Assembly: GCA_017992055.1 (NCBI GenBank)
Contig: JAGOPK010000001.1
Coordinates: forward strand, 930,001 to 994,000
Length of the DNA: 64,000 nt
Source: Burkholderiaceae bacterium
GTDB lineage: Bacteria; Pseudomonadota; Gammaproteobacteria; Burkholderiales; Burkholderiaceae_C
Direction: 5' to 3'
Shown here: positions 45,920 through 53,913 of the stretch, piece after piece
Numbering within the stretch: position 1 is the stretch's first letter
Layout: each line of letters starts with the position of its first letter
Notes under the pieces: model-generated
Told to the model about the DNA's origin: nothing
The model's database searches: none
Seen by the model: only the letters and a program-made list of their open reading frames with translations
Position numbers and translations under genes: made by a program

Positions 45920-47161
45920 CTAGAACCCCAGCCGCGCGGCACGCGAGGTGAAGAAGATGCCACTGGGCGCCGGCACGGCCAGCGAGGCCAGCGGCTCCAG
46001 GCGGCGGGTGTCGTAGACCTCGACGCTGTTGTCGTCGCGGCAGCTCAGCCAGACGGCCTCGCCGCGCGGCGTGAACTCCATGTGCAGCACCGCATGGCCG
46101 GGCTGCAGCGTGGCCACGACGCGGCGCGTCGGCACGTCGATGACCTGCACGCGGTGGTAGTCGGGCATGGCGAAGCTGACCCAGACCTGTCGGCCATCGG
46201 GCCGCGCCATCACGAACACCGGCTGGCCGGCCACGGCGATGCGGCCCACCTCCTGCCAGGTGGCGGTGTCGACCACCAGCACCTCGCGGCGGCCGATGGC
46301 CGGCAGATAGGCATGTCGGCCGGCCACGGCCCAGCCGCGCAGATGTGGCATCTTGTACACCGGCAGCGGCGCCTGGCCGCGGCCGTAACCGGGCAGGATG
46401 CGGCGCGCGCGCGGCTCGTCGTCCCACAGGTCGACCATGGCCAGGCCGTCCTCGCCGAACAGACCGGCGATGTAATAACGCCCATCGGGCGTGACCAGGG
46501 CATCGTAGGGCTGGCGGCCGATGCCGGGCAGCCGGGTGATGCGCGGGTGGCGCGGGTCCAGCGACAGGTCGGCGATCCAGATTGCGTCGGCATCGAACAG
46601 GCTGAAGGCGAAGCGGTCGCCGGGCAGGTCGACCAGGCCGACCACGCGCGAGCGCGCCGCCGACGGGTCGCCGTCGGCGCTGGTGGGGATGTCGGCCAGC
46701 AGCTCCAGCGTGCGCGAGTCGAACACCTTGACGCCGCCGGGCGTGTAGTTCTGCGCCGCCAGCAGGCGGCCGTCGGCATTGATGGCGCCGCCGATGGAGT
46801 TGCCGGCCTGCATCACCCGGCCCTCGATGCGCGCGGCCAGCAGGTTGACGCGGCTCAGCGCGCCGTCGCGGCCGAACACATTGGCATGCAGGCCGTCGCG
46901 CGAGAACACCACCGAGGCATGCGACAGATCGCCCAGGCCGCCGACCTCGCCGCGCAGCTGGCGCCGGCTGGTGTCGACGATGGACAGCGCGCCGCGGGAG
47001 CGCTGCACCACCACGCCGAGGTCGCCGGTGCCGGTGTAGAACGGGCCGTCGCCGGGCGTGGCATTCGGTGCAGGGTTGGGCGCGGCATTGGCGCGGGCCT
47101 GCACAGCGGTGCCGGCCGTGGCGGCCAGCGCCGCCAGGCCCATCCAGTCACGGCGTTTCAT
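45920..47161 (-). CDS. nirF: Heme d1 biosynthesis protein NirF
   Basis: 413 residues: a twin-arginine-like signal (MKRRDWMGLAALAATAGTA) and an all-beta propeller (about 60-413) related to the d1 domain but without a cytochrome c part. NirF is a periplasmic protein of the late heme d1 pathway that binds the cofactor. It overlaps nirC by 4 bases and precedes nirDL by 3 bases. Motifs such as GRQPYDALVTPDGRYYIAGL fit the family. Confidence 0.9.
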   Translation of the reverse strand: MKRRDWMGLAALAATAGTAVQARANAAPNPAPNATPGDGPFYTGTGDLGVVVQRSRGALSIVDTSRRQLRGEVGGLGDLSHASVVFSRDGLHANVFGRDGALSRVNLLAARIEGRVMQAGNSIGGAINADGRLLAAQNYTPGGVKVFDSRTLELLADIPTSADGDPSAARSRVVGLVDLPGDRFAFSLFDADAIWIADLSLDPRHPRITRLPGIGRQPYDALVTPDGRYYIAGLFGEDGLAMVDLWDDEPRARRILPGYGRGQAPLPVYKMPHLRGWAVAGRHAYLPAIGRREVLVVDTATWQEVGRIAVAGQPVFVMARPDGRQVWVSFAMPDYHRVQVIDVPTRRVVATLQPGHAVLHMEFTPRGEAVWLSCRDDNSVEVYDTRRLEPLASLAVPAPSGIFFTSRAARLGF

Positions 47162-47520
47162 CGTGGGTCCTCCTCTGGAAATCCGCCGGCCAGGCGCTCG
47201 GCGATCCACTGCGCCTCGGCATCGCTCAGCAGCTGGCGCCAGGGTGGCATCGGCGTGCCGGGCCGGCCGTGCTGGATGGTGGCAACCATCGAGCCCAGCG
47301 GCTTGCCGGCCAGCGCGGCCGGCGTGATGGCCGGGCCCAGGCCGCCGGTCAGGCGCATGCCGTGGCAGGCGCCGCAGTCCTGGCGCACCAGGCGCACCAG
47401 GGCCTGCTGGCGCGCGGGCTGCGGCGCCGGATCGGCGGCCCCGGCGGCAACCGGGGCGATGGCCGTCAGCAGCAGGATCGGCAACAGCGTTGGCAGCAGG
47501 GCGGGGACGGTGCGGCGCAT
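47158..47520 (-). CDS. nirC: Small c-type cytochrome NirC (c55X)
   Basis: 120 residues: signal peptide (about 1-28) and one heme site C49-x-x-C52-H53 in RQDCGACHGMRL; a Met in PGTPMPPW is the likely second ligand. NirC is a monoheme periplasmic cytochrome that donates electrons to NirS and/or takes part in NirF/NirN-dependent d1 maturation. There is no ribosome site before the ATG. A palindrome with FNR geometry is centred 44 bases upstream, which would place the transcript start within about 3 bases of the ATG (see findings). Confidence 0.85.
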   Translation of the reverse strand: MRRTVPALLPTLLPILLLTAIAPVAAGAADPAPQPARQQALVRLVRQDCGACHGMRLTGGLGPAITPAALAGKPLGSMVATIQHGRPGTPMPPWRQLLSDAEAQWIAERLAGGFPEEDPR

Positions 47521-47529
47521 GGTGAAGCT

Positions 47530-47535
47530 ATGGTC
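47530..47535 (-). promoter_or_regulatory. Candidate -10 element for nirC
   Basis: GACCAT on the minus strand, centred exactly 32 bases from the centre of the palindrome at 47558-47571, the spacing of FNR-type class II promoters. It matches TATAAT at only 3 of 6 positions. Confidence 0.35.
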
Positions 47536-47557
47536 GCCGTGCGCCCGCCGGGCGTCC

Positions 47558-47571
47558 TTGAACTGGTTCAA
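47558..47571. promoter_or_regulatory. FNR/Dnr-geometry palindrome upstream of nirC
   Basis: TTGAACTGGTTCAA, with TTGAA half-sites 4 bases apart, extended to CTTGAAC/GTTCAAG. It has the 14-bp layout of FNR/Dnr boxes (TTGAT-N4-ATCAA) with T changed to A. It covers the stop codon of the upstream d1-like gene, so the regulator would bind inside that gene's end. Confidence 0.65.
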
Positions 47572-48344
47572 GAGGACTCGTGCTGCGCTGCCACCGTGCC
47601 GTGCTCGAGGTCGATCTGCAGCAGCGCCCCGGCCGTGGCCGCCAGCAGCCGACCATCCGGCCGGGCGCGCACCCAGCGCAGCGGCGCCGGCACGGCCAGC
47701 GACTGCAGGGCCTGGCCGTCGGCATCCAGCCAGTGCAGCAGCGGCCGCGCCGCATCGGGCACGGCCAGGCCTGCGCGGCCGTGGCGCTGGCACCAGGTGC
47801 CGGCCCGCGGCCGCGGGTCGCCGCCCACCGCCCAGGCGGCGGCGCGGCGCCGTGCGTCCAGGTTGTAGCCCAGCACCGGCTGGCCGGGCGCCGCACCCAC
47901 CAGCAGCAGGCCGGCCGCGTCGAGCGTGATGTGGGCCAGCGGATGGGGCAGGCGGGTGCGTCGCAGATGCAGAAAGCCCGGCACCGGCAGGCCCTCGCCC
48001 ATGCGGAAGTCGTGCACCAGGCCCTCGTACTGCGGCTCGGCATGGGGGTCCAGCGAGATCTCCCACAGCTCGGGCAGGGCGGCTGGCGCGACGACCACGC
48101 TGCGCCGCGTGGCCGAGGCCAGCAGCTCGCCACCGCCGGGCAGCGGCCAGCGCTTCAGCACCTGGCCACGGTCGGTGGCCAGCAGCTGCAGCTCGTCGGC
48201 GCCGGCTGGGGCCTGCAGGCGCCAGCGGCCGCCGTCGGCCAGCACGCTGTCGACCGCATCCTGCTCGTGCAGATCGTGCAGAGCGCGCGGTGCCGCCGGG
48301 GCCTGACGCGGCATTGCAGCGGCCAGCGACAGCAGCGCCGGCAC
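47568..48344 (-). CDS. Shortened heme d1-type propeller protein (NirS/NirN-related), unknown function
   Basis: 258 residues from a GTG. The region ASATRRSVVVAPAALPELWEISLD aligns by eye with the NirN segment VYDAAPRRSFVVALKDLPELWEISYD, and YNLDARRR with VNLDARRR, so this is a d1-propeller relative. It lacks the cytochrome c domain and the first blades, including the proximal heme-d1 His. The frame is open upstream to a CTG at 48362 that overlaps the cupredoxin stop. From there it would begin LRRRRVVPALLSLAAA, a good export signal, so the real start may be non-ATG. It sits between cupredoxin and nirC genes inside the nir run. It may be a heme d1 chaperone, an electron-transfer adaptor or a decaying paralogue. 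I see no frameshift. Confidence 0.7.
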   Translation of the reverse strand: MPALLSLAAAMPRQAPAAPRALHDLHEQDAVDSVLADGGRWRLQAPAGADELQLLATDRGQVLKRWPLPGGGELLASATRRSVVVAPAALPELWEISLDPHAEPQYEGLVHDFRMGEGLPVPGFLHLRRTRLPHPLAHITLDAAGLLLVGAAPGQPVLGYNLDARRRAAAWAVGGDPRPRAGTWCQRHGRAGLAVPDAARPLLHWLDADGQALQSLAVPAPLRWVRARPDGRLLAATAGALLQIDLEHGTVAAQHESS

Positions 48345-48358
48345 AACGCGGCGGCGCC

Positions 48359-48709
48359 TCAGGGCAGCACCTCGATCAGGCCGCGCATCTCGGGATGCGG
48401 GCCGCAGTCGTAGGCATAGCGGCCCGGCTGGTCGAAGCGGCGCTCCCAGTGCTCGCCGGGCAGCAGGCGCTCGCTTTCCAGGCCGCCCTCGGCGGCAAAG
48501 CGCACCGAGTGCGAGCTGCGCTTCTCGTCGTTGATCCAGCGCACCGTGCTGCCGGCGGCGATGCTCAGCGTCGCCGGCTCGAAGCGGTGGCCGTGGATGC
48601 GCACGATGGCCGGCAGGCCGGGCCCGGCCGCTTCAGCCCCGGGCAGCGCGCACAGGCCCAGCAGGCCGACCTGCAGCGCGTGGCGGCGGGACCGGTGGTG
48701 CGCGCGCAT
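48359..48709 (-). CDS. Periplasmic cupredoxin (plastocyanin-like)
   Basis: 116 residues: N-terminal basic signal (about 1-27, ending AEA) and a cupredoxin domain. Type 1 copper ligands are visible: H67 (KRSSHSVRF), C102, H105 and M108 in YDCGPHPEM. Such proteins carry single electrons in the periplasm. In nirSTB-type operons of Pseudomonas stutzeri the corresponding place holds nirM (cytochrome c551), so this protein could be the copper-based electron donor to NirS (inference). It starts 7 bases after nirB. Confidence 0.85.
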   Translation of the reverse strand: MRAHHRSRRHALQVGLLGLCALPGAEAAGPGLPAIVRIHGHRFEPATLSIAAGSTVRWINDEKRSSHSVRFAAEGGLESERLLPGEHWERRFDQPGRYAYDCGPHPEMRGLIEVLP

Positions 48710-48716
48710 CACGGAC

Positions 48717-49601
48717 TCACTGCTTGGCGGCGGTGATGTCGGCCTTGGCGTCCAGGCCCAGCGTATAGCCCAGCGAGACATGGTGGAAGCGCCCGGCGCT
48801 GTGGTCGTCGTGGATGGCGAAGCCGAAGTTGACGGTCTTGCCCGGGGCCAGGGTCACATCGCCCTCGCCACCGGCGAGCTTGCGGGTGAACACCACCACC
48901 CACTCGTCGCCCTTCTTCTCGCCCTTGGCCTCCAGCAGGGCCTTGCCGCCGTCCATCACCCGCTTGTCGGCGACGTAGCCGTCGGACTTGCCGCCCTTGC
49001 TGGTCCATTGCAGCAGGTCGTAGAACTTGCCGCTGGCCAGCGAGCCGCCGACGACGTACTTGGTCTTCTTGTCGTCCTTGCCATCGGGCATGGTGCGTGC
49101 GTCGGTGTGGCAGGTCTCCCAGCAGCCCGACAGGTTGGCGCGCTCGACCTTGTTGTCCTCGAGCATGAAGGCCAGCTTGACGGCATTGTCCTTGTCCATC
49201 TTGTCGGCGCCGCCGGCGGGCTGCTTCCAGGCGAAGCGCAGGTACAGGTTGGCGCCGTCGTGGGCCGCCTGCAGCTTGACCGGGATGCTGCCGGCCTTGC
49301 CCTTGATGGGCGCGGGCTCGTTCTTCTGGCCGCTGGCCAGCTTCTTGCCCATGTCGGCGGCTTCTTCCTGGTGGCAGCTGGCGCAGCTTTCGCCCTTCTT
49401 CAGCGCGCGGGCGCCGCCGTGCTCGCTGCCCTTGGTGATCCACTCGATCGGCGAGGCGCCCGGGTAGAACAGGGTGATGGACTTGGCGGGCACCTTGGAC
49501 CAGTCGGGCGCCGCGGCCAGCGCACTGCTGCCGGCGAAGAGGCCGCCGGCGGCGCCCAGAGCGCACGCGGCGAGGAGGGGAAGTCGGTTCAGGGGCTTCA
49601 T
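48717..49601 (-). CDS. nirB: Diheme cytochrome c-552 (NirB of the nirSTB type)
   Basis: 294 residues: signal peptide (about 1-30, ending ALAA) and a cytochrome c-552/ethylbenzene dehydrogenase-type heme-binding domain (about 100-290). One standard heme site, C73-x-x-C76-H77 (CASCH), and a second with three spacer residues, C160-x3-C164-H165 (CWETCH). It resembles the diheme NirB of Pseudomonas stutzeri, not the siroheme NADH-nitrite reductase also called NirB. Predicted role: electron carrier between NirT and NirS in the periplasm. It is 66 bases after nirT on the same strand. Confidence 0.82.
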   Translation of the reverse strand: MKPLNRLPLLAACALGAAGGLFAGSSALAAAPDWSKVPAKSITLFYPGASPIEWITKGSEHGGARALKKGESCASCHQEEAADMGKKLASGQKNEPAPIKGKAGSIPVKLQAAHDGANLYLRFAWKQPAGGADKMDKDNAVKLAFMLEDNKVERANLSGCWETCHTDARTMPDGKDDKKTKYVVGGSLASGKFYDLLQWTSKGGKSDGYVADKRVMDGGKALLEAKGEKKGDEWVVVFTRKLAGGEGDVTLAPGKTVNFGFAIHDDHSAGRFHHVSLGYTLGLDAKADITAAKQ

Positions 49602-49667
49602 GGTGTGGCCTGTGTTGGGGTGGCAGGGGAGCGAGGGGGGGGACGCTTGCGCGGCGCGACGGCCGGC

Positions 49668-50270
49668 TCAGTCCTGTTCCTCGGGCATGTTCTGCGGCTT
49701 GTGGTGGGCAATGCCCTTGTGGCAGTCGATGCAGGTCTCGTTGTTCTTCACCGCCAGCTGGTGCGACTTCTGCGCGCGCGGCTTCTGCGCCTGCGAGTTC
49801 ATCGACTTGAAGTCGTGGCAGTTGCGGCATTCCAGCGAGTCGTTGGCCTTCATGCGCGCCCACTCGCTCTGCGCCAGCTGCAGCCGCTTGGCCTCGAACT
49901 TCTCGCGCGTATCGATGGAGCCGGTGAGCTTGCCCCAGACCTCGCGCGAGGCCTGGATCTTGCGGATCATCTTCGGGCCCCATTCCTTGGGCACGTGGCA
50001 GTCGGGGCAGGTGGCGCGCACGCCGGTGCGGTTGGTGTAGTGGATGGTGTTTTCCGAATACTCCTTGTAGACGTTGTCGCGCATCTCGTGGCAGCTGATG
50101 CAGAAGGCCTCCTTGTTGGTGGCCTCCAGCACGGTGTTGAAGCCGCCCCAGAGCACCACGCCGGCGACGATGCCGATGCCCAGCAGGGCCAGCAGCGAGC
50201 GTGGGCTCGGGCGCAGCAGGGCTTGCCAGGTCCGCCTCAGCAGGCCCGGGCGGGAGGGGGTGTCGGCCAT
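49668..50270 (-). CDS. nirT: Tetraheme quinol dehydrogenase NirT (NapC/NirT family)
   Basis: 200 residues: N-terminal TM anchor (about 25-47, SLLALLGIGIVAGVVLWGG) and four CXXCH sites: C57/C60/H61, C88/C91/H92, C138/C141/H142 and C170/C173/H174. NapC/NirT proteins oxidise membrane quinol and pass electrons to periplasmic reductases. Directly following nirS, it is the likely entry point of electrons for nitrite reduction. A GGAGG ribosome site precedes the ATG. Position makes NirT more likely than NapC. Confidence 0.92.
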   Translation of the reverse strand: MADTPSRPGLLRRTWQALLRPSPRSLLALLGIGIVAGVVLWGGFNTVLEATNKEAFCISCHEMRDNVYKEYSENTIHYTNRTGVRATCPDCHVPKEWGPKMIRKIQASREVWGKLTGSIDTREKFEAKRLQLAQSEWARMKANDSLECRNCHDFKSMNSQAQKPRAQKSHQLAVKNNETCIDCHKGIAHHKPQNMPEEQD

Positions 50271-50343
50271 GCGGGCCTCCTCACTGGATCGGGAAATCGG
50301 GCGCCCGGGCGCCGCCTGGGGCGGCCACCCGGGCGGGCACACA

Positions 50344-52029
50344 TCAGTAGATGTCGTGCTGGGTGTTGTAGACGTTGAACTTGCCGGTCGGGGTGACGAT
50401 GGCCGGATCGGTGATCACCTTCTTCAGCTTCAGGGTCTTGTCGTCGTAGATCACGATCGCCGACTGGTCGGTCTTGCCGCCCCACAGCGAGATCCACACC
50501 TCGTCACCCGCCTGGTTGTATTCGGGGTGGGTGGCGCGGCGCAGCGCCTTGGTCTCGGGCAGGCCGGAGTCCTTGGCCACGTCCAGCTTCACCGGGGCCT
50601 TGTTCAGGTCCTTGAGGTTGTAGACATAGACCGACTCGGCGTTTTCACGCTCGGGGTTCATCGGCAGGTCGGCCCACAGGTTGCCCGACTTGGGATGGGT
50701 CTTGACGAACAGGTTGCCGGCGCCCGGGGTCTTCAGCTCCTGCACCACCTTCCAGTTGTGCTGCTTGAACTTGGCATGCTTGGGATCGTCCGAGGGCGTG
50801 GAGATCAGCGTGATGGCCGCGTCGCCCAGGTGGCCGGTGGCCCACACCGGACCGTACTGCGGGTGCATGAAGTTGGCGCCGCGGCCCGGGTGCGGGATCT
50901 TCTTGGTGTCCACCAGCGCGGCCAGCTTGCCGGTCTTGGTGTCCACCGCGGCGATCTTGTGCGAGGCATTGGCGGCCACCAGGAAGTAGCGCTTGGACTG
51001 GTCCCAGCCGCCGTCGTGCAGGAACTTGGCCGACTCGATGGTGGTGGTCTTCAGGTTCTTGATGTCGCTGTAGTCGACCAGCATGATCTGGCCGGTCTCC
51101 TTGATGTTGACCACCCATTCCGGCTTGGTCATCGACGAGACGATCGAGGCCACGCGCGGCTCGGGGTGGTACTCGCCGTCCACCGTGTTGCCCCGCGTCG
51201 AGACGATCTTCATCGGCTTGAGCGTCTCGCCGTCCATGATCGAGAACTGGGGCGGCCAGTAGGTGCCGCCGATCAGGTACTTGTCCTCGTAGCCCTTGAA
51301 CTTGGAGGTGTCGACCGAGCGCGCGTCGGCGCCCAGCTTGACCGTGGCCACCGTCTGCGGCGTCTCGTACCAGAGGTCGATTAGCGTCACCAGGCCGTCG
51401 CGGCCGACGGTGTAGACATAGCGGCCCGAGGCCGACAGGCGTGAGATGTGCACCGCATAGCCGGTGTCCAGCACCTTCCAGATCTGCTTGGTGTCACCGT
51501 CCACCAGGGCCAGCTTGCCGGCGTCGCGCAGCGTGATCGCGAACACGTTCTGCAGGTTGATCTTGTTGCGCTGCGCCTTGGGCCGCTGGTCCACCGGCAC
51601 CAGCAGCTTCCAGCTGGCCTCCATGTCCTTCAGGCTGAACTCGGGCGGCACATCCGGCACGTTCTGGATGTAGCGCGCCATGATGTTGATCTCGTCCTTG
51701 GACAGGATGTCGTCGTAATTGACCATGCCGCCCTCGGTGCCCAGGGCGATGATCTTTTCCAGGCGCGCGGTGCCCAGCTTGAGCGTGCCGCCTTCCTGCA
51801 CGCTGCCGTCGGCACCCTTCTTCGACCACATCGGCTCCAGGTTCTTGCCGGTGGCGCCCTTGCGCAGCACGCCGTGGCAGCCCGCGCAGCGTTCGAAATA
51901 GATCTTCTTGCCGATCTCCTTCTCCTGCGGGCTCAGTGGCGGTGCCGCGGTCTGCGCCAGGACGCCCTGGGCCAGGCCGGCCAGCAGCAAAGCGAAGGTC
52001 AGACGGGGCAGGGAGCTGTGCTTTCTCAT
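50344..52029 (-). CDS. nirS: Cytochrome cd1 nitrite reductase NirS
   Basis: 561 residues: signal peptide (about 1-25, ending VLA), cytochrome c domain with C48-x-x-C51-H52 (CAGCH), then an eight-bladed d1 propeller. H194 in GYAVHISRLS is the expected proximal d1 ligand. H338 (KFLHDGG) and H380 (KIPHPGRG) are 42 residues apart, the same as the catalytic His pair H327/H369 of the Pseudomonas enzyme. It reduces nitrite to nitric oxide in the periplasm during denitrification. It leads the nir run; upstream lies a palindrome shared with divergent nirE. No nitric oxide reductase gene is in the window. Confidence 0.96.
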   Translation of the reverse strand: MRKHSSLPRLTFALLLAGLAQGVLAQTAAPPLSPQEKEIGKKIYFERCAGCHGVLRKGATGKNLEPMWSKKGADGSVQEGGTLKLGTARLEKIIALGTEGGMVNYDDILSKDEINIMARYIQNVPDVPPEFSLKDMEASWKLLVPVDQRPKAQRNKINLQNVFAITLRDAGKLALVDGDTKQIWKVLDTGYAVHISRLSASGRYVYTVGRDGLVTLIDLWYETPQTVATVKLGADARSVDTSKFKGYEDKYLIGGTYWPPQFSIMDGETLKPMKIVSTRGNTVDGEYHPEPRVASIVSSMTKPEWVVNIKETGQIMLVDYSDIKNLKTTTIESAKFLHDGGWDQSKRYFLVAANASHKIAAVDTKTGKLAALVDTKKIPHPGRGANFMHPQYGPVWATGHLGDAAITLISTPSDDPKHAKFKQHNWKVVQELKTPGAGNLFVKTHPKSGNLWADLPMNPERENAESVYVYNLKDLNKAPVKLDVAKDSGLPETKALRRATHPEYNQAGDEVWISLWGGKTDQSAIVIYDDKTLKLKKVITDPAIVTPTGKFNVYNTQHDIY

Positions 52030-52138
52030 GATGGGTTCAGTCCTTCGTTGGCCGCGGCGGTTGCCGGCTGCCACCCTTCTTTAGGTGCCATGCGCGGGCT
52101 CGCATTCACAGGCGGCGCTGGATTCGGCGAGCGGCGCA

Positions 52139-52144
52139 ATGGTC
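52139..52144 (-). promoter_or_regulatory. Candidate -10 element for nirS
   Basis: GACCAT on the minus strand, centred 33 bases from the nirS/nirE palindrome. It is identical to the hexamer found at the same relative place before nirC. Weak match to TATAAT, so activator-dependent if real. Confidence 0.35.
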
Positions 52145-52158
52145 CCCCCGACGGTGAT

Positions 52159-52190
52159 CCAGCGTCCTTGAACCAGTTCAAGGACGCTGG
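52159..52190. promoter_or_regulatory. Large palindrome between nirS and nirE with FNR/Dnr-like core
   Basis: Arms CCAGCGTCCTTGAAC and its exact complement, 15 bp each, around CA. The inner 14 bases (52168-52181, TTGAACCAGTTCAA) have the FNR/Dnr layout with TTGAA half-sites. The site lies 130 bases before nirS and 47 bases before nirE, so it could control both divergent genes. Confidence 0.72.
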
Positions 52191-52203
52191 GCCGGGGCGC
52201 ATC

Positions 52204-52209
52204 GAACAT
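52204..52209 (+). promoter_or_regulatory. Candidate -10 element for nirE
   Basis: GAACAT, centred 32 bases from the palindrome centre on the nirE side. A start near 52216 would leave a leader of about 21 bases that includes the GGAG ribosome site at 52225-52228. Confidence 0.35.
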
Positions 52210-52236
52210 GGCCGGGATCAATTTGGAGTCCATCCC

Positions 52237-53124
52237 ATGGCCGTCGTCGACCTGCTGCCGCCCCGGCGCGGCGAAACCGAACCCGCACCCGGGCCTGCGC
52301 ACACGCCGGGCCAGCCCGGCCGCGTCACCCTGGTGGGCGCCGGTCCCGGCGACCCCGACCTGCTGACGCTGCGTGCGCTGCGCGCGCTGCAGTCGGCCAC
52401 CCTGGTGCTGCACGACCACCTGGTGGCGCCCGAGGTGCTGGCCCTGGTGCCGGCCACGGCCGAGCGCATCTACGTGGGCAAGGAGAGCGGCGCGCACACG
52501 CTGCAGCAGACGGCCATCACCGAGCTGATGCTGGGCCTGGCGCGCAGCGGCCGGGCGGTGCTGCGGCTCAAGGGCGGCGACCCCTACATCTTCGGCCGCG
52601 GCGGCGAGGAGGCGCAGGCCCTGGCCGCGGCCGGCGTGCCCTTCGAGGTCGTGCCCGGCATCAGCTCGGCCCAGGCCGCCGCGGCCCTGGCCGGCATGCC
52701 GCTGACCCACCGCGACCATGCCGACGCGGTGGTGCTGGCCACCGGCCACCTGCGTGCCGAGCGCCAGCCCGGGGGGCCGGGCCCGGAGCTGGACCTGGAT
52801 CTGGACTGGGCCCGGCTGGCACGGCCGCACCAGACGGTGGTGATCTACATGGGCGTGGGCGCGCTGCCGCTGATCTGCAGCGGCCTGGTGGCCCATGGCC
52901 TGCCGGCCGAGACACCGGCAGCCACCGTCGAGCGCGCTTCGCGCAGCGACCAGCGCATCACCGTCGGCACCCTGGCCAGCCTGCCGCGGCTGGCCCAGGC
53001 CCAGGGCGTGCGCGCGCCAGCGCTGATCTTCGTCGGCGGCGTGGTCGGCCTGCATGCCGAGCTGGCGGCCGGTGGCCGCAGCCTGCCGGTCGCGGCGGCG
53101 ACAGCATCACGGGCTGCGGCTTGA
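52237..53124 (+). CDS. nirE: Uroporphyrinogen-III C-methyltransferase NirE
   Basis: 295 residues of the SUMT/CobA family: VTLVGAGPGDPDLLTLRALR, LKGGDPYIFGRGGEEAQAL, VVPGISSAQAA and VIYMGVG. It methylates uroporphyrinogen III with SAM to precorrin-2, the first step to siroheme and heme d1. No CysG dehydrogenase/ferrochelatase domain is fused, so NirE fits better than CysG. It is divergent from nirS and shares its palindrome. Its stop codon lies inside the palindrome in front of ccmA. The ATG has GGAG 8 bases upstream. Confidence 0.9.
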   Translation: MAVVDLLPPRRGETEPAPGPAHTPGQPGRVTLVGAGPGDPDLLTLRALRALQSATLVLHDHLVAPEVLALVPATAERIYVGKESGAHTLQQTAITELMLGLARSGRAVLRLKGGDPYIFGRGGEEAQALAAAGVPFEVVPGISSAQAAAALAGMPLTHRDHADAVVLATGHLRAERQPGGPGPELDLDLDWARLARPHQTVVIYMGVGALPLICSGLVAHGLPAETPAATVERASRSDQRITVGTLASLPRLAQAQGVRAPALIFVGGVVGLHAELAAGGRSLPVAAATASRAAA

Positions 53125-53134
53125 CTTGAGTCAA
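53121..53134. promoter_or_regulatory. FNR/Dnr-geometry palindrome upstream of ccmA
   Basis: TTGACTTGAGTCAA (arms CTTGACT/AGTCAAG around TG) overlaps the nirE stop codon. Half-sites are TTGAC with 4-base spacing, the layout of FNR/Dnr boxes with T replaced by C. Confidence 0.65.
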
Positions 53135-53142
53135 GACGAAGC

Positions 53143-53913
53143 ATGTCCGGGGTTCGCAGAATGCGCCTGTCCGATCCCTGGCGGATCGGGCCATGCGCCT
53201 TGAACCCCACTACCCCTTCCTCCTTCTCCGTTGATCACGCCGACGCCTGGCTGCAGACGCGGCAGCTGGTCGGCGCGCGCAACGGCCAGCGCCTGTGGGG
53301 CCCGCTGTCGCTGCGGCTGGCGCCGGGCGAGGCCCTGCATGTGCAAGGCCCCAATGGCAGCGGCAAGACCACGCTGCTGCGCACCCTGGCCGGGCTGCGG
53401 CCGCCGGCGCTGGGCCAGGTGCAGTCCTCGCCGGCGCTGCAGGCCGGTGGCCTGTGGTGGCTGGGCCATGCACTGCCGCTGGCCGACGCCCTGGACGCGC
53501 AGCACAACCTGCTGCACTGGCTGGCGCTGGCCGGCGCCCCGGTCGACGCCCAGGCCGTGGCCCGGCAGCTGCAGCGCCTGCAGGTGCCGGCCGGGCGGCC
53601 GCTGCGCCAGCTGTCGGCCGGCCAGCGGCGCAAGACCGGCCTGGCCGTGCTGGCGCTGGCGCCGCGCCCGCTGTGGCTGCTGGACGAACCCTTCGATGCA
53701 CTCGACCAGGCCGGCTGCGACTGGCTGGCCGAGCTGGCCGCGGCGCATTGCGCGGCCGGCGGCGCCCTGGTCTTCAGCGCCCACCAGGTGCCGCCGGGCG
53801 CCCTGGCCCGGGCCCGGGTGCTGAACCTGCAGCCGGCGGCCGCGCCCGCCAGTGCCGAAACGGCCAGCCAATCGGCCCGCCAAGCGGCCACGCCGGTCTG
53901 GGCCGGGGCATGA
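53143..53913 (+). CDS. ccmA: Heme exporter ATP-binding protein CcmA
   Basis: Up to 256 residues. ABC ATPase with Walker A GPNGSGKTT, signature LSAGQRRKT and Walker B LWLLDEPFDALD. With CcmB it powers release of holo-CcmE from CcmCD. The coordinates give the outermost ATG. Other in-frame starts are ATG 53161 and TTG 53200; the candidate promoter (CAGAAT at 53157-53162, transcript start near 53169) would favour 53200, giving 237 residues, closer to the family norm of about 205. The C-terminal 25 residues are an Ala/Ser-rich tail. Overlaps ccmB by 4 bases. Confidence 0.88.
   Translation: MSGVRRMRLSDPWRIGPCALNPTTPSSFSVDHADAWLQTRQLVGARNGQRLWGPLSLRLAPGEALHVQGPNGSGKTTLLRTLAGLRPPALGQVQSSPALQAGGLWWLGHALPLADALDAQHNLLHWLALAGAPVDAQAVARQLQRLQVPAGRPLRQLSAGQRRKTGLAVLALAPRPLWLLDEPFDALDQAGCDWLAELAAAHCAAGGALVFSAHQVPPGALARARVLNLQPAAAPASAETASQSARQAATPVWAGA
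53157..53162 (+). promoter_or_regulatory. Candidate -10 element for ccm operon
   Basis: CAGAAT, matching TATAAT at 4 of 6 positions, is centred exactly 32 bases from the centre of the upstream palindrome, the spacing of FNR-type class II promoters. Confidence 0.42.

Follow-up and report, generated by a model that had tools for sequence, protein, structure and literature searches.

Palindromes in the nir-ccm region

The 64-kb stretch of a Burkholderiaceae genome analyzed here (the window, 64,000 nucleotides in all) carries a nir cluster and ccm genes, and three 14-bp palindromes with the layout of CRP/FNR-family operators lie before its genes. These palindromes, together with the DNR-type regulator that may read two of them, are the subject of this analysis. 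They fell into two classes: sites 1 and 2 are one operator, and site 3 is FNR-type. The sites and the genes they face were as follows.

47558-47571, minus strand: site 1, candidate Dnr-type operator, TTGAACCAGTTCAA towards the nirC-type gene
52159-52190: 32-bp palindrome with 15-bp arms, containing site 2 (52168-52181, TTGAACCAGTTCAA), between the divergent nirS and nirE
53121-53134, plus strand: site 3, FNR-type palindrome TTGACTTGAGTCAA, of a class apart from sites 1 and 2
47158-47520, minus strand: small cytochrome c gene of NirC type (Pfam Cytochrome_CBB3), the first after site 1, which we take to be nirC from its position
50344-52029, minus strand: nirS, cytochrome cd1 nitrite reductase (Pfam Cytochrom_D1 and Cytochrom_C)
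52237-53124, plus strand: nirE/cobA-type tetrapyrrole methyltransferase (Pfam TP_methylase), named nirE from its place beside nirS
53161-53913, plus strand: ccmA, the first ccm gene, start uncertain (TIGR01189 CcmA)

The three palindromes, none with a TTGAT half-site, were present where the first-pass annotation had placed them and were the only exact matches to TTGA-N6-TCAA in the window. Allowing one mismatch gave 11 matches, where 3.4 would be expected and no shuffle out of 100 had as many. Sites 1 and 2 both read TTGAAC-N2-GTTCAA and are exact reverse complements of each other. The long palindrome around site 2 is broken at its center pair alone. A like site also precedes the nirC-type gene of G539 (L388:7942). 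Site 3 is TTGAC-N4-GTCAA and precedes ccmA; it has the form TTGA[TC]N4[AG]TCAA in front of a gene, as in an FNR regulon.

Site 1 shares bases with the TGA stop codon that ends the upstream gene (47568-48314), and site 3 with the stop codon of nirE. At 47558-47571, 53121-53134, and L017:9940-9953 (napD/napA), operator and preceding TGA overlap in one and the same register. A special design of this kind was rejected: of 49 fetched sites put to a frame test, 11 fell in the stop frame and 5 and 6 in the other two, so no overlap with stop codons beyond chance is claimed.

Genome-wide distribution of the two site classes

The host genome comprised 5.9 Mb in 40 contigs, and the reversed pattern served as the control. 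TTGA-N6-TCAA gave 52 matches (24 for the control). The stricter TTGAACNNGTTCAA occurred in five copies, with none for the control, and all five lay at denitrification promoters: nirS/nirE, the nirC-type gene, nosZ (C6:57187), napD-napA (C17:1003940), and norC (C17:1004515). NosZ and NapA are NCBIfam matches and NapD is a Pfam match; norCBQD was named from Pfam cytochrome c, COX1, NorQ C-terminus, and VWA domains in that order; an additional gene separates norQ from norD. When the GG flanks were added, the motif gave five sites at 0-1 mismatch and two at 2 mismatches; at up to 3 mismatches the count (59, against 35 for the control) was that of background. Thus, the concentration of the motif before denitrification genes, for which the first-pass annotation had proposed a genome scan, was found. 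The "nir-ccm regulon" that it had drawn was not: the motif marks a nir-nor-nos-nap regulon, and site 3 belongs to another class.

That class, TTGAC-N4-GTCAA, had nine copies among the matches listed, site 3 included. Neighbors of the other copies include a LuxR-type response regulator pair, a GAF protein, a universal stress protein, a DksA-type protein, and a COX2/cyo-type oxidase subunit; none of these neighbors carried a denitrification label in the scans made, which covered 34 of the products neighboring the 49 sites fetched (of 52). The TTGAC half-site also turned up in relatives with Thr or His in the recognition helix of Dnr. Site 3 therefore does not share the variant of sites 1 and 2, as had been claimed, and a single three-site regulon was rejected, since site 3 is of the TTGAC class. 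Mixed half-site matches adjoin genes of the hemN/fnr, hemA, and moaA types. One mixed-type sequence, TTGACATGCATCAA (L017:10445-10458), stands 70 bp upstream of the norC operator and is a possible FNR input.

The targets include nir, nor, and nos, as in a canonical DNR regulon. The operator was not the DNR consensus published for gamma- and beta-proteobacteria, CTTGATnnnnATCAAG (Rodionov et al. 2005, PMC1274295): the host's own Dnr-type sites were TTGAACNNGTTCAA in 5/5 cases, which makes this a variant rather than a DNR regulon with the canonical operator.

Dnr as the candidate reader

A CRP/FNR-family gene follows norCBQD at L017:16344-17066 (C17:1010344-1011063). Its product, Dnr, matched structure 3dkw, which we take to be P. 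aeruginosa DNR, over residues 16-235, that is, the sensor and helix-turn-helix domains (phmmer E 4.3e-36). Dnr has a His aligned with His139 of 3dkw, and only one Cys (position 33) among its first 45 residues, so that it lacks an FNR-type N-terminal cysteine cluster. His139 of the P. aeruginosa protein is named as important for heme (PMC8510549).

The recognition helix of Dnr is TPEYFSRVLHELE (PEYFSR), versus QPETFSRIMHRL (PETFSR) in 3dkw. The recognition helices were inspected, as the earlier annotation had also suggested: among the 14 host proteins that score above the Pfam cut-off for HTH_Crp_2, E-Y-x-S-R was present in Dnr and in no other. The FNR-type protein whose gene adjoins one of hemN type has ETVSR. 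Tyr was found at this position in 15/15 Dnr loci of named genomes (Azohydromonas, Extensimonas, Rubrivivax, Hydrogenophaga, Ottowia, Rhodoferax, and two uncultured beta-proteobacteria); one of these loci has Gln for the preceding Glu. A second Dnr copy, approximately 50% identical and also PEYFSR, was located near the first in 9 of the 40 family regions fetched (L255, L258, L259, L261, L262, L264, L265, L273, and L277).

Covariation of operator and recognition helix

Samples of 300 genomes of the order and 250 of the family were searched for Dnr, and the promoters belonging to some of the matches were then retrieved. The resulting set held 137 norC or nirS promoters from 101 distinct genomes or records. 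Rows were dropped when identity was <45% (nirS) or <40% (norC), when the match started beyond query residue 60, when it scored <80 bits, or when <300 bases lay upstream. Promoters in duplicate records (L077 = G350, L084 = G460) were counted once. Each line below gives the promoters with a TTGAA half-site, with other half-sites only, and without an exact TTGA-N6-TCAA.

Tyr Dnr (51 genomes): 49, 0, 17
Thr Dnr (21 genomes): 0, 38, 0
His Dnr (16 genomes): 0, 14, 6
Gln-His Dnr (3 genomes), counted apart: 0, 0, 3
No Dnr sequence in hand (10 genomes), counted apart: 2, 3, 5

Among promoters with an exact TTGA-N6-TCAA, a TTGAA half-site was present in 49/49 with Tyr and in 0/52 with Thr or His (naive Fisher p 5e-30, not corrected for ancestry).

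These counts bear on two other explanations. All three sites could be ordinary degenerate boxes for FNR, Dnr, or both, with TTGAA as normal variation. All three do retain the outer TTGA/TCAA core, site 3 fits such a box, and alpha-proteobacterial FNR, FixK, and DNR have been described with very similar sites (PMC2908626). Normal variation, however, would not follow the regulator, as TTGAA does, and it would not explain why TTGAACNNGTTCAA is confined to denitrification promoters in the host genome. For sites 1 and 2 the degenerate-FNR reading was rejected because TTGAA covaries with the Dnr helix, and for the three sites as a whole we consider it very unlikely. Alternatively, another CRP/FNR paralogue of the host could read TTGAAC, namely the PETLSR protein of C21 (L062) or the ETASR protein of C9 (L065). 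The genome encodes both, and each retains the E-x-x-S-R helix, but both have Thr, which among Dnr proteins goes with TTGA[TC] sites, and it is Dnr, and neither of these, that follows norCBQD; this alternative appears most improbable. The predicted reader of sites 1 and 2 is likely the DNR orthologue encoded after norCBQD. The earlier proposal of a CRP/FNR paralogue with altered specificity is thus supported as the best reading of sites 1 and 2, given the denitrification promoters (5/5) and the helix covariation, and is not supported for site 3.

Several observations weigh against a tight coupling of TTGAA to Tyr. The covariation represents few evolutionary events. No exact TTGA-N6-TCAA was present in 17 of the 66 Tyr promoters and in 6 of the 20 His promoters. 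The same-genus G435 (2 mismatches) and G465 (3 mismatches) lack the GG flanks, and G038 has a 2-mismatch candidate alone. The lone Tyr sequence G418 has a canonical-type ATGATCTAAATCAA before nirS and no match to TTGAACNNGTTCAA at 1-3 mismatches; its placement in the tree was unsupported (0.03). The half-sites of G022 are mixed TTGAT/TTGAA, and its sister G152 had no CTTGAWNNNNTTCAAG place (control, 1). As to the Tyr promoters that lack an exact site, the best match in 16/17 was 1-3 mismatches from TTGAACNNGTTCAA, a level reached by 0-6% of 300 letter shuffles, so most of them look like decayed versions of the motif.

Trees were midpoint-rooted and were built with the recognition helix left out. 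The main Tyr clade formed a single group (71 leaves, support 0.96). G022 and G152 formed a second Tyr branch (pair support 1.0) among His sequences (node supports 0.55-0.85), and over the stretch PExFSRILHEL they differed from the neighboring His sequences chiefly at the Tyr residue. G022 had four CTTGAWNNNNTTCAAG places (control, 1): CTTGAACCAGTTCAAG and CTTGATGGAGTTCAAG by nirS, CTTGATCTGGTTCAAG 15 kb off, and CTTGATGCGCTTCAAG elsewhere. This topology can be read in two ways. Dnr could read TTGAAC while Tyr is a mark of ancestry and other changes in the Dnr clade alter specificity; the unity of the main clade and the canonical-type site of G418 agree with this. The second branch argues against it, because there the Tyr pair is placed among His sequences with little other change in the stretch compared and G022 has TTGAA half-sites. 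We regard Tyr as a mere ancestry mark as possible, if somewhat doubtful. Since G418 has a canonical-type site, G022 mixed half-sites, and G152 none, Tyr by itself may be insufficient for the altered operator.

A Dnr homologue reached E<=1e-40 in 70 of the 250 family genomes, those with Thr and His types among them, and these 70 held 92 motif copies (control, 2). The other 180 held 61 (control, 37); single copies therefore occur without Dnr too.

The nirS gene of the window was 82% identical to nirS of G083, a member of another family with a His-type Dnr, whose nirS is the best match outside this set. A match was present in 71 family genomes, and in 65 of them even the closest copy was no more than 62% identical. 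These values suggest that the nir cluster is of mixed ancestry. Of the own-type nirS genes, that of G083 has TTGACGATCGTCAA, whereas those of G441 and G539 (Tyr; 88-89% identical) have TTGAACCACTTCAA and TTGAACCAGTTCAA, respectively. G524, with no helix sequence in hand, also has TTGAACCACTTCAA, and two more distant own-type copies (G517 and G325) had no exact site. G324 and G445, family members with a Thr Dnr, have TTGAC/GTCAA sites at both nirS copies. Judged from the own-type promoters of the His and Tyr genomes, the operator tracks regulator type and not gene ancestry.

A further change was seen in DNRs with a PQHFSR helix, in which Glu is replaced by Gln (L309:14260, L308, and L362). The three Gln-His genomes had no exact TTGA-N6-TCAA within 330 bases of nirS. 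TTAAC or GTTAA half-sites precede nirS in these genomes: TTAACGTGCGTTAA in G118, and GTTAA at a comparable position in both G039 and G126 (three promoters, read by eye); G126 also has TTGATTCACATCAA approximately 0.7 kb upstream. These sequences fit a G-to-A change of the half-site accompanying the Glu-to-Gln change of the helix.

Promoter geometry

The four gene directions of the window each have a −10-like hexamer past the site.

47530-47535, minus strand: GACCAT towards the nirC-type gene, 23-28 nt past site 1
52139-52144, minus strand: GACCAT towards nirS, one base past the exact class II register
52204-52209, plus strand: GAACAT towards nirE, in the exact class II register
53157-53162, plus strand: CAGAAT towards ccmA, in the exact class II register

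Towards the nirC-type gene, nirE, and ccmA, the hexamer lies 23-28 nt past the site, with 32 bp from center to center, and for nirS one base more. This is the spacing of a class II FNR-type promoter (site center approximately 32 bp from the −10 center), as far as sequence can tell. Register was scored as A at 24 and T at 28 from the end of the site, the second and last bases of the −10 element. The exact class II register was found in seven of eight gene directions (nirC-type gene, nirE, ccmA, nosZ, the divergent cytochrome gene, napA, and norC), nirS being the one direction off, by one base. The background frequency of A..T at one register was 2.2% over 78,161 upstream positions. On the nap-facing side of the norC site and at the TTGAG site before dnr, no −10 match was in register.

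The register was conserved in relatives. Among unique downstream stretches, A24 and T28 were each present in 11/13 for nirS, and in 16/19 and 17/19, respectively, for norC; these counts include only sites with at most one mismatch from the motif, and related sequences are not independent. The spacing of 32-33 bases in four directions, to which the earlier annotation had drawn attention, thus holds.

With a class II promoter at site 1, transcription of the nirC-type gene would begin approximately 3 nt before its ATG (47518-47523), giving a nearly leaderless message. A class II promoter at site 3 would place the transcript start near 53169, downstream of the ATGs at 53143 and 53161; in that case the in-frame TTG at 53200 could be the start of ccmA.

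Neighboring genes

The nirE-type methyltransferase gene and ccmABC are divergent from nirS, with ccmB and ccmC after ccmA. From nirS, the nir cluster continues with a NapC/NirT-type cytochrome, an ethylbenzene-dehydrogenase-like protein, a cupredoxin, the gene at 47568-48314, whose product had no family match, and the NirC-type cytochrome c. NirF-like, three NirD/L-type, NirJ, and NirN-like genes come after it, down to 40991.

Proposed mechanism

It is highly probable, in our judgment, that Dnr acts as a class II activator at TTGAA operators, that the change of half-site is tied to Tyr, and that the circuit is set apart from FNR. Dnr would bind NTCC-TTGAAC-YR-GTTCAA-GGAN in class II position, centered at about −41.5 and 32 bp from a weak −10 hexamer. 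Its predicted targets are nirS, nirE, the nirC-type gene, norC, nosZ with the divergent cytochrome gene, and napA. TTGAA in place of TTGAT would go with Tyr after the conserved Glu of the recognition helix. FNR would act at TTGA[TC] sites, for example at site 3 ahead of ccmA, which would probably keep the Dnr circuit separate, and ccm would receive two inputs, from site 3 and by read-through from nirE. Binding by Dnr, its response to nitric oxide, a causal role of Tyr, and insulation from FNR are what we infer from these sequences.

A broader proposal is that a change at one position of the DNR helix (Thr/His to Tyr, after the conserved Glu) switched TTGA[TC] to TTGAAC in large part of the family, that the nitric oxide circuit became orthogonal to FNR, and that nir operators of other ancestry were rewritten to suit the resident Dnr; the Glu-to-Gln change with TTAAC would then suggest a residue-to-base code. 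For this proposal as a whole we see the chances as evenly balanced.

A whole regulon seems to have been re-addressed in evolution, and the regulator-operator pairs that nature offers here could serve to test the evolution of CRP/FNR specificity. The data also suggest that, in many Burkholderiales, denitrification promoters would be overlooked by regulon predictions based on a TTGAT matrix. The Tyr helix may keep the denitrification circuit apart from the oxygen-sensing circuit.

Comparison with known systems

No report of a TTGAAC DNR operator was found in the literature searched, a scope outside which lay most subscription journals, supplements, and RegPrecise. With DNR of P. aeruginosa and P. 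stutzeri and with the beta-proteobacterial DNR regulons, the host system shares the protein family, the nir/nor/nos targets, the 14-bp layout, and His139. It differs in operator and helix: the published consensus is the canonical one given above and the P. aeruginosa helix is PETFSR, whereas the host has CCTTGAACYRGTTCAAGG and PEYFSR.

The FNR/ANR regulon (TTGATN4ATCAA) shares the palindrome layout and class II spacing, and site 3 fits it. Sites 1 and 2 differ from it in their TTGAA halves, preferred YR center, GG flanks, and confinement to denitrification promoters in the host genome. Alpha-proteobacterial FNR, FixK, and DNR are described as recognizing almost identical DNA, which raises the question of how cells separate their regulons (PMC2908626). 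The Bradyrhizobium FixK2 consensus, TTGA/C-N6-T/GCAA, covers the outer bases of sites 1-3, and the FixK2/NnrR list includes one site with a TTGAA half, TTGAACCACGTCAG, upstream of a gene of the caspase family (PMC6710368). Those boxes follow a broad consensus in another bacterial class, whereas the host has a TTGAA-specific operator at denitrification genes.

HcpR and HcpR2, also of the CRP/FNR family, offer a parallel in which half-site shifts follow helix changes, as in the host (PMC1274295). The changes described there are at CRP positions 180 and 181, whereas the host residue follows the conserved Glu; by counting from CRP Glu181 or FNR Glu209, the host Tyr would correspond to CRP 182 or FNR 210.

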